NCBI GenBank assembly: GCA_903831865.1
Contig: CAIKZH010000001.1
Coordinates: forward strand, 1 to 41,578
Direction of reading: 5' to 3'
Origin: an uncultured Coriobacteriia bacterium
Lineage (GTDB): Bacteria; Actinomycetota; Coriobacteriia; Anaerosomatales; PALSA-660
DNA length: 41,578 nucleotides
Shown piece after piece: positions 15,386-19,401 of this stretch. A program made the translations under genes and the position numbers. Positions within the stretch are counted from its first letter, which is position 1. The number at the start of each line of letters is the position of its first letter. The notes under the pieces are model-generated. The model did no database searches. It saw only the letters and a list, made by a program, of their open reading frames with translations, and was not told where the DNA came from.

Positions 15386-15669
15386 GTCACCGGCAGAAGT
15401 GATCTCACCGCGCTTCGCGGCGCGGTGTGTACGTGGGATGGACGGCCCGAGCGCTCTGACGCTGGGCGTTCGGCGTGGTCGCGGCACCACATGGTGCTGT
15501 GATTCCACATACTCGGAGCATCGCCTTTGCCGGACGTCGGGTCGTCCGGCTCGTCGGCGTTCACGATGTTGCGCAGAGCAACGAGTGAACGGAAGGCGGC
15601 AGGTCCCCGCGTCGCACGCGAAATGGCGACTAAGGACGCAGCGCCGTGCGTCCGGAGGGAGGGATCGGC

Positions 15670-17211
<1,542 letters not shown>

Positions 17212-17242
17212 CACCGAGCCATGGCTGTGGAACCTGAAGGAG

Positions 17243-17268
17243 ACGAGCGGCGCGAATGCGCCGCTCGT
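17243..17268 (+). terminator. Hairpin downstream of rny
   Basis: ACGAGCGGCGC-GAAT-GCGCCGCTCGT, 11-bp perfect stem, 4-nt loop, 30 nt past rny stop. Confidence 0.7.
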
Positions 17269-17340
17269 CCTGACTCCGGGCTCTCAGGGAGCGCACCTGT
17301 CCACGACGTGGCCTGCCTGCCGGATGATCGCCTGGACCTC

Positions 17341-17802
17341 GTGATAGAGGTCGCGCACGCGTCGGACCTCGCAGACGCCCTGGCCGTGCAGCACGCCGCC
17401 TTCGGGCGCGTCGCGCGGATGTTCGGCATCCCTCCCGAGAACCTGAGCGCGGTACGGGAGACGCTGCAGGACCTGCGTGCCCTCCGCGAGGCCGGAGCGA
17501 CGATCCTTGTCGCTCGCCTGGGGGATCGCGTCGTGGGCACTGTGAGGGCAACGGCCCGTGTCGACGGCACCGTCGACGTCGGCCGTCTTGCCGTGGTCGC
17601 GGACGCGCTGCGCCGCGGTGTGGGGCGCTCGCTCATGTGCGCCGTCGAGGACCGGTTCCCCGAGGCGAGACGGTTCGAGCTGTTCACGGGTGCCGAGGCG
17701 ACGGTACCGCTCGCCCTCTATCGCTCCATGGGCTACCGGGTGATCCGCACGGAGCCCGGCGACGCCGTCCCCATCGTCTGGCTCGCGAAGGACCGCACGT
17801 GA
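17341..17802 (+). CDS. GNAT family N-acetyltransferase
   Basis: VGTVRATARVDGTVDVGRLAVVADALRRGVGRSLM... LYRSMGYR; start moved from ORF start 17221 because that region holds the rny terminator. Confidence 0.75.
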   Translation: MIEVAHASDLADALAVQHAAFGRVARMFGIPPENLSAVRETLQDLRALREAGATILVARLGDRVVGTVRATARVDGTVDVGRLAVVADALRRGVGRSLMCAVEDRFPEARRFELFTGAEATVPLALYRSMGYRVIRTEPGDAVPIVWLAKDRT

Positions 17803-17857: not shown

Positions 17858-17870
17858 TACACTCCTCGCA
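17858..17870 (+). promoter_or_regulatory. -10 element (TACACT) positioned for a leaderless transcript
   Basis: TACACT 17858-17863, 6 nt, then ATG at 17870. Confidence 0.5.
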
Positions 17871-18946
17871 TGACTCCCGACGACTCTCTCCTCGACTTCG
17901 TGACCGCCGTCTCGGGCGATCAGTACGTCAAGGTCGAGGAGAATCTGGGCGACGGCTTCGTCCGCCTGAAGGTCTCCGAGGCTGAGAGGCGACAGGCGAA
18001 ACACGACATCCGCTCTGTGGAGGACGTCGTCGTCGAACTGCTCCGCAATTCCCGGGACGCGCATGCGCGCCGGATCTGGGTGGCCAGCAGCCGCGAAGGA
18101 GACACCCGCACGCTCACTGTGATAGACGACGGGGTGGGTGTCCCGCCCACGATGCGTGAGCGCATCTTCGAACCTCGCGTGACCAGCAAGCTCGAGACGA
18201 TGGTCGTGGACCGCTGGGGGGTGCACGGGCGGGGGATGGCGCTCTTCTCCGTCAAGAGCAACGTCGAGGAGGCGCGGATCGTCGCGTCGGATGTCCACAA
18301 GGGGTGCTCCGTCGTCGTCGTTGCCGCCACCGCCTCACTCCCCGAGCGAGCGGACCAGTCCAGGTGGCCTTCGGTGGAGCGCGACGAGACCGGCCGCCTG
18401 CGCGTAGGGACGGGGCCCCACAACATCGTGAGGCGCGTCGTGGAGTTCGCGCTGGAGCATCTGGACGTCGACGTCTTCAGCGGTACGCCGACCGAGGTGC
18501 TGGCTTCGCTGACGGCCGGCGCGCGCTCATCGCTCGACTCGCGCCAGCTTCTCTTCTGTGACGATCCGTCGGCGGTCGCTGTGTGGCAGCGTCCCGCGCT
18601 GGCGGGAGACGCCAACGACCTTGTCTCACTCGCAGGCGACATCGGTCTGCAGATCTCCGAGCGGACCGCGCACCGGGTGATAGCGGGGGAGATCGCGTCA
18701 CTCTCGAGTGTTCACGACCTCGTCGACGCTTCTCTGGTCGAAAGTGCTGACCGCCGTCCGGACATCTACAGGGATCGCCGGGGACTCCAGCTGCACTCTC
18801 GGGACGTGGCCGAGTTCCAGCGCCGGCTCGAGGACGCCTTCGACGTCGTGGGGGAGCGCTACTACCTGCACCTGGAAGGCGAGCCCAAGGTCAGGGTCGG
18901 ACGCGACTGCGTGACGGTACGTTTCAATGTCGCCAAGGACGACTGA
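17870..18946 (+). CDS. Standalone GHKL (Bergerat-fold) ATPase, uncharacterised
   Basis: N box VVELLRNSRDAHA, G1 VIDDGVGVPP, TSK...GVHGRGMALFSVKSN; no DHp/phosphoacceptor or sensor domain seen. Confidence 0.75.
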   Translation: MTPDDSLLDFVTAVSGDQYVKVEENLGDGFVRLKVSEAERRQAKHDIRSVEDVVVELLRNSRDAHARRIWVASSREGDTRTLTVIDDGVGVPPTMRERIFEPRVTSKLETMVVDRWGVHGRGMALFSVKSNVEEARIVASDVHKGCSVVVVAATASLPERADQSRWPSVERDETGRLRVGTGPHNIVRRVVEFALEHLDVDVFSGTPTEVLASLTAGARSSLDSRQLLFCDDPSAVAVWQRPALAGDANDLVSLAGDIGLQISERTAHRVIAGEIASLSSVHDLVDASLVESADRRPDIYRDRRGLQLHSRDVAEFQRRLEDAFDVVGERYYLHLEGEPKVRVGRDCVTVRFNVAKDD

Positions 18947-19036: not shown

Positions 19037-19042
19037 TATAAT
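19037..19042 (+). promoter_or_regulatory. -10 element TATAAT upstream of spoVS
   Basis: Consensus hexamer 75 nt 5' of spoVS; no obvious -35. Confidence 0.5.
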
Positions 19043-19116: not shown

Positions 19117-19401
19117 GTGGAAGTCCTCAAGGTCTCCTCACACTCCAACCCCAACTCCGTCGCGGGCGCGCTCGCGGGCGTGATCCGCGAGCAGGGTGCG
19201 GCAGAGATGCAGACCGTCGGCGCCGGCGCCCTCAATCAGGCCGTCAAGGCGATCGCTATCGCCCGTGGCTTCGTCGCACCCTCGGGTGTCGACCTCATCT
19301 GCGTCCCTGCGTTCGCTGACATCTGCATCAACGGCGAGGAGCGCACAGCGATCCGCATCCTGGTGGAGCCCCGTGACATGCGGGAACGCTCCGCCTCGTA
19401 G
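19117..19401 (+). CDS. spoVS: Stage V sporulation protein S (SpoVS)
   Basis: MEVLKVSSHSNPNSVAGALAGVIREQGAAEMQTVGAGALNQAVKAIAIARGFVAPSGVDLICVPAFADI. Confidence 0.95.
   Translation: MEVLKVSSHSNPNSVAGALAGVIREQGAAEMQTVGAGALNQAVKAIAIARGFVAPSGVDLICVPAFADICINGEERTAIRILVEPRDMRERSAS

Follow-up and report, generated by a model that had tools for sequence, protein, structure and literature searches.

A near-universal gene of the Coriobacteriia, present also in human gut Collinsella and annotated merely as an 'ATP-binding protein', encodes what appears to be an undescribed family within the known GHKL superfamily. The protein, referred to here as the ATPase, joins an intact ATP site to a structurally unmatched C-terminal domain, an architecture that the superfamily gains. 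As its gene constantly neighbours rny, which encodes RNase Y, it is a possible helper in RNA turnover. The reading favoured here, to which we give a probability of a little over one in three, is that it acts as an ATP-dependent dimer switch serving RNase Y-based RNA turnover in the Coriobacteriia and their relatives. If this is true, one of the major nucleases of bacterial mRNA decay would be regulated by a switch that ATP drives. We know of no precedent for control of this kind, and a literature search returned neither one nor any paper linking a GHKL protein to RNase Y or SpoVS.

The window analysed is a 41,578-nucleotide stretch of DNA from an uncultured Coriobacteriia bacterium (contig CAIKZH010000001.1). 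Its gene order is recA-recX-rny-GNAT-ATPase-spoVS-PHP-miaB-AMMECR1-domain gene-miaA, in which PHP denotes a phosphoesterase gene; rny, the GNAT acetyltransferase gene, the ATPase gene and spoVS are confirmed by Pfam (Table 1) and the remaining neighbours are named by sequence recognition. A first-pass annotation of the window had placed the ATPase gene between rny and spoVS. spoVS does lie downstream, but the GNAT gene on the rny side had been overlooked, and the ATPase gene is therefore the second after rny in the window. A GNAT gene also separates the two at loci L061, L062 and L065. The 358-residue GHKL (Bergerat) protein that the annotation described is borne out by the open reading frame and its HATPase_c match, and full-length conservation across 125 genera rules out a chance reading frame.

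Table 1. Features of the rny-ATPase-spoVS region, in coordinates of the window.
Feature	Position	Strand	Basis or remark
rny, RNase Y	15646..17211	+	RNase_Y_N 1.3e-59, HD, KH
GNAT acetyltransferase gene between rny and ATPase gene	17221..17802	+	Acetyltransf_7, E 4.8e-9
TACACT, -10-like hexamer 6 nt before ATPase ATG	17858..17863	+	Candidate leaderless promoter
ATPase gene, 358-aa GHKL protein (P0001)	17870..18946	+	ORF with ATG start; HATPase_c, E 6.5e-11; class-wide conservation
Well-conserved stretch near the N terminus (residues 22-45; VEENLGDGFVRLKVSEAERRQAKH region)	17933..18004	+	Possible dimer strap; putative role
Bergerat/GHKL ATP-binding domain, residues 46-154	18005..18331	+	Pfam, phmmer, Foldseek
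N box E56-LLR-N60-SRD-A64, putative catalytic Glu56	18035..18061	+	E56 conservation
G2/ATP-lid motif GVHGRGMAL, residues 117-125	18218..18244	+	G117 and H119-G122 class-invariant
C-terminal domain, residues 155-358 (204 aa)	18332..18943	+	AlphaFold2 pLDDT 91; unmatched to families or folds
Invariant S263-x-R265-x3-R269 (SERTAHR), HTH-like helix pair	18656..18676	+	34/34 in A2
TATAAT, -10-like hexamer upstream of spoVS	19037..19042	+	Probably spoVS's own promoter
spoVS	19117..19401	+	PF04232, 1.4e-37

Membership of the GHKL superfamily is well marked. The HATPase_c match spans residues 46-150 and scores 43 bits (cut-off 26), HATPase_c_3 matches residues 49-126, and Foldseek aligns the model to GHKL structures with probability 1.0. 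Conservation was read from two alignments, one of 35 class orthologues (A1) and one of 34 members from across the phylum (A2). The motifs quoted earlier are all present: the N box with E56, N60 and D63, DDGVGV at 86-91, TSK at 105-107 and GVHGRGMAL at 117-125. Invariant in A1 are E56, N60, D63, D86, G90, T105, K107, G117 and H119-G120-R121-G122; in A2 most ATP-site residues are still invariant or nearly so, with Lys or Arg at 107 and a worn lid in family f36. Glu56 itself is kept in 35/35 members of A1 and 33/34 of A2. The ATPase carries an intact ATP site. Residues 22-45, just ahead of the ATP-binding domain, are among the best-conserved stretches of the family, with G29, L33, E37 and R41 invariant in both alignments.

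Three shortened orthologues from f36, at L254, L255 and L256, have a degraded ATP lid (HGAGLSL, RAAGLAL) and an intact S-x-R-x3-R motif, and in that of L255 a Gln replaces the catalytic Glu. From these changes they are likely to be pseudo-ATPases, which still adjoin rny.

The first-pass annotation regarded the protein as a hydrolysing GHKL enzyme and not a histidine kinase. The second half of this statement stands, as a Glu precedes the N-box Asn by four residues and so excludes a typical histidine kinase; the first is supported in that the protein is a standalone GHKL member of the hydrolysing type. An N-box Glu is, however, also common to the GHKL Ser/Thr protein kinases (SpoIIAB/RsbW, PDK/BCKDK), and hence Glu56 alone is no proof of a pure ATPase. 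Sensor histidine kinases share the HATPase_c match, but the ATPase has Glu at the position of their N-box Asn (35/35) and neither a DHp/HisKA nor a sensor domain, and this identity was rejected. No phosphoacceptor or sensor domain had been noticed before, in agreement with the lack of any further Pfam domain in the protein at E<=1.

Among better known proteins, the nearest are MutL, Mlh1 and PMS2, whose N-terminal regions have the same Bergerat motifs with E-x3-N. The ATPase matches MutL 5x9y at 7.9e-6 with phmmer and at 1.8e-7 when a profile is compared with solved structures, where MutL and Mlh1 come top, followed more weakly by histidine kinases (AdeS, CckA) and MORC2; Foldseek gives 1.9e-5 to MutL LN40 (1nhh). 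The likeness is, however, confined to residues ~46-150. The MutL model TIGR00585 is matched over positions 19-101 of 555 only, at 37 bits against a cut-off of 180, and the ATPase has no transducer (S5-fold), linker or endonuclease domain and no MutS partner. Topoisomerase VI B and MORC ATPases, which also carry a GHKL domain in a multidomain protein, yield long, low-confidence Foldseek alignments, but TM-scores are 0.2-0.31 at an rmsd of ~20, the transducer and the H2TH, S5 and CW accessory domains have no Pfam or fold match in residues 155-358, and the conserved neighbourhood holds no topoisomerase A partner. A TopoVIB-like protein was accordingly rejected: the GHKL domain alone aligns, and the C-terminal domain finds no counterpart in the PDB or viral libraries.

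AlphaFold2 models the whole ATPase with a pLDDT of 87, and its C-terminal 204 residues still more confidently. That domain had been called unrecognized, and it belongs to no Pfam family or solved fold that could be found: the best PDB fold match has an E value of 0.24, the best in a viral fold library 0.21, and residues 155-358 give no recurring Pfam match among 34 members. A confident structural match to a characterized family, which the first-pass annotation had named as grounds for abandoning its proposal, was sought with Foldseek and not found; over the whole protein, meaningful scores are confined to the GHKL part. Q163, N185, G205, S263, R265 and R269 are invariant in A2 (34/34). As the invariant residues survive even in f36 with its degraded lid, the conserved C-terminal surface is probably the functional core.

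These features can be assembled into a mechanism. Two protomers, each with ATP in its Bergerat domain, would come together as a closed dimer swapped at the N termini, with residues 22-45 as the strap, and hydrolysis driven by Glu56 would reopen it. The cycle would be relayed to the C-terminal domain, where the surface formed by Q163, N185, G205 and S263-x-R265-x3-R269 may contact RNase Y itself or one of its bound factors, in this way controlling the nuclease's activity, assembly or partner loading. SpoVS, as an Alba-fold candidate binder of RNA or DNA, would be an optional further component. We infer, then, that the ATPase dimerizes, hydrolyses ATP and is linked to RNase Y both functionally and physically.

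The case for RNase Y is made by the company that the gene keeps. The ATPase is encoded in 297/300 Coriobacteriia genomes, and in 271 of the 272 of good quality, nearly always in one copy; 125 genera were sampled, and orthologues within the class are ~37-75% identical. The general gene order is recA-recX-rny-ATPase-(spoVS)-(PHP)-miaB, brackets marking optional genes. rny lies upstream on the same strand, either directly or one gene away, at all 58 testable class loci and at all 20 that come from elsewhere in the phylum, and in most of the class the ATPase gene follows it immediately. The two genes overlap or are separated by <=30 nt in 32/64 loci; for the ATPase gene and spoVS a gap of <=30 nt is found in 3/66. 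A named Collinsella aerofaciens record has the same gene order, the ATPase, labelled only 'ATP-binding protein' by NCBI, starting 1 nt past the rny stop. A lack of conserved adjacency to rny and spoVS, which the first-pass annotation had also named as grounds for abandoning its proposal, is not what is seen: the adjacency is retained throughout the class and beyond it.

In a sample of 297 genomes from the phylum, the ATPase is found in 119, RNase Y (detected by RNase_Y_N) in 210 and SpoVS in 95. The genomes with the ATPase are a subset of those with RNase Y (118/119), the one exception being a genome that is 79% complete. The intact catalytic motifs and the confident structure model also speak for the RNase Y reading, as does the retention of the rny-ATPase pair in lineages without SpoVS (f36, f45, f20 and G008). 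At such loci, G304 included, the order closes to rny-ATPase-miaB or to rny-ATPase followed by another gene, with no recurrent replacement for spoVS except, in f45, a pair of membrane-protein genes. The nuclease itself can do without the ATPase, as 92 genomes of the phylum sample have RNase Y but not the ATPase and one genome of the class has lost the ATPase. This genome, G163, is a complete, small one and the only good-quality class genome that lacks the gene. In the 1.2 of its 1.45 Mb that were read, the locus included, recA, rny, spoVS and miaB are arranged as elsewhere, and ~230 bp take the place of the ATPase gene (locus L320, about 140-640), and a profile search of the whole genome found no copy elsewhere. 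As G163 keeps rny and spoVS, both RNase Y and SpoVS can persist without the ATPase.

The strongest counter-reading, itself unlikely, is that the gene order is simply inherited: the ATPase would sit in an old, stable block from recA to miaB and function elsewhere, its position being uninformative. The links to RNase Y are all positional, and adjacency may be inertia because the loci descend vertically within this one syntenic block. The block contains the functionally unrelated recA, recX, PHP, miaB and miaA genes, and part of it is common to Bacillota, where it persists without the ATPase. In 33 genomes, the partial distance correlation given recA and miaB is 0.20 for ATPase and rny (10/500 permutations), which speaks for the RNase Y reading, and 0.04 for ATPase and spoVS (166/500 permutations). 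The correlation between ATPase and miaB distances, 0.28, is no lower than the rny value and counts against that reading. These correlations are weak evidence and tell only against a special link to SpoVS. It also counts against RNase Y that in the order to which the window belongs the ATPase gene is separated from rny by a GNAT gene or by a gap that holds a promoter-like element. Inheritance fits less well with the traffic inside the block, where SpoVS, PHP, GNAT and further genes are present at some loci and missing at others while rny and the ATPase gene stay together, often overlapping or within 30 nt, and with the finding that no genome with the ATPase convincingly lacks RNase Y.

In a more specific form of the RNase Y reading, the ATPase would represent an undescribed class of RNase Y cofactors that hydrolyse ATP. 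As a dimer clamp of the GHKL kind whose C-terminal fold is new, it would tie mRNA decay to the ATP level of the cell, both in Coriobacteriia and in adjacent lineages of Actinomycetota, and occupy the slot held in Bacillota by YmdB. In this detail it is unlikely. The earlier statement that ymdB fills the rny-spoVS gap of Bacillus agrees with what is seen in Bacillota, where the slot holds TIGR00282/YmdB. This metallophosphoesterase is unrelated to the ATPase and belongs to a phosphodiesterase family without an ATP site, making it a positional analogue only. At L155, and as a second ORF in several loci from Peptococcaceae, Selenomonadaceae and Natroniella, a protein of 173-225 aa is encoded between rny and spoVS of Bacillota, either in addition to YmdB or in its place.

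The first-pass annotation had proposed SpoVS as the main partner, with RNase Y as the alternative. On this reading, the ATPase would drive the loading or removal of an Alba-like protein on nucleic acid, and SpoVS does belong to the Alba superfamily (PMC11621453). spoVS is immediately downstream at 52/59 class loci and 14/20 others. In the phylum sample 84 genomes have both proteins, and among the genomes with RNase Y co-occurrence is strong (ATPase and SpoVS 83, ATPase alone 35, SpoVS alone 8, neither 84), although related genomes are not independent, for which reason counts are given in preference to the tiny Fisher p values. Against this partnership, co-occurrence is not obligate: 35/119 genomes with the ATPase lack SpoVS, and 11 genomes of the phylum have SpoVS without the ATPase. 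SpoVS of Bacillota works without the ATPase, as the sampled genomes bear out, and G163 retained it after the ATPase was lost. No ATPase-spoVS co-evolution signal is seen beyond phylogeny.

The two genes also seem to be expressed apart. In most members of the window's order a TANACT hexamer precedes the ATPase ATG by 6-8 nt, compared with 0.3% of ATGs from the same loci, and most members have TATAAT or TATACT ~75-115 nt upstream of spoVS. These order-wide hexamers suggest that the ATPase gene and spoVS are transcribed separately there, the former possibly without a leader. A generic sigma-70 scan of the locus found neither a promoter nor a terminator, and an Rfam search of it gave no RNA element at E<=0.1. 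Taken together, SpoVS is a quite improbable partner, and RNase Y, from the genomic evidence, the better fit.

The protein could also be a GHKL Ser/Thr protein kinase of the SpoIIAB/RsbW or PDK type, with RNase Y, SpoVS or another neighbour as its substrate, and not a mechanical ATPase, a proposal that we consider quite improbable. It would account for the N-box Glu, which such kinases also use, and the best NCBIfam matches do mix histidine kinases with MutL. The RsbW/SpoIIAB and PDK families, however, are not among the best Pfam or NCBIfam matches, the best solved structures for the profile are MutL/Mlh1 and then AdeS, CckA and MORC2 in place of Ser/Thr kinases, and the ATPase has an additional C-terminal domain of 200 aa.

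It is very unlikely that the protein is an ATP-regulated nucleic-acid binder whose C-terminal S-x-R-x3-R helix-turn-helix would bind DNA or RNA upon closure of the GHKL domain. An HTH-like spacing (L-x3-A-x3-GL-x2-S-x-R-x3-RI-x2-GEI-x-PL) is seen in most members, matches to HTH_31, HTH_3 and IclR stay below threshold (HTH_31 at E 0.012 in the S-x-R-x3-R segment, with the consensus sequence only), and weak XRE structures occur among the poor Foldseek matches. No HTH match is significant, however, both domains are net acidic and the HTH-like segment has a charge of -1 to -3. The acidic domains speak against a non-specific nucleic-acid clamp, and with the lack of a transducer-domain match they tell against that part of the original proposal. 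A MutL-derived mismatch-repair factor is scarcely credible, even though the nearest solved relatives are MutL proteins and canonical MutL is missing from the Coriobacteriia genomes tested: MutS1 (controls positive) is likewise absent from every one tested, where canonical repair therefore does not explain the ATPase and at most a MutS-independent role is left, f36 has true MutS and MutL besides it, and the similarity to MutL stops where the Bergerat domain ends. A role in anti-phage defence was rejected, the ATPase being a vertical core gene with no PADLOC match and no phage homologue.

Sampling for orthologues covered the phylum of the window, Bacillota and Armatimonadota. None was found in about 45 genomes of Bacillota or in 121 of Armatimonadota. 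Among 46 genomes with randomly sampled spoVS loci, mostly from Bacillota, the only orthologue is that of G581 (L139), a Coriobacteriia-like MAG that carries the ATPase locus; matches in the others cover the Bergerat domain only, usually in frames of ~600 aa or longer.

Some loci depart from the usual arrangement. At L122, from an Acidimicrobiales MAG, and at L207, rny and the ATPase gene are both missing between recA and spoVS, so that the order reads recA-spoVS-miaB. In G200 a phosphoglucomutase-like gene is inserted between the ATPase gene and spoVS (L078, 6229-7998), and two copies of SpoVS are encoded in G367, G543, G504 (f56) and G442. A 900-kb 'plasmid 6' of Collinsella aerofaciens in PLSDB (NZ_OY725717.1, L329) bears recA, rny, miaB and lexA and looks like a fragment of the chromosome mislabelled as a plasmid.
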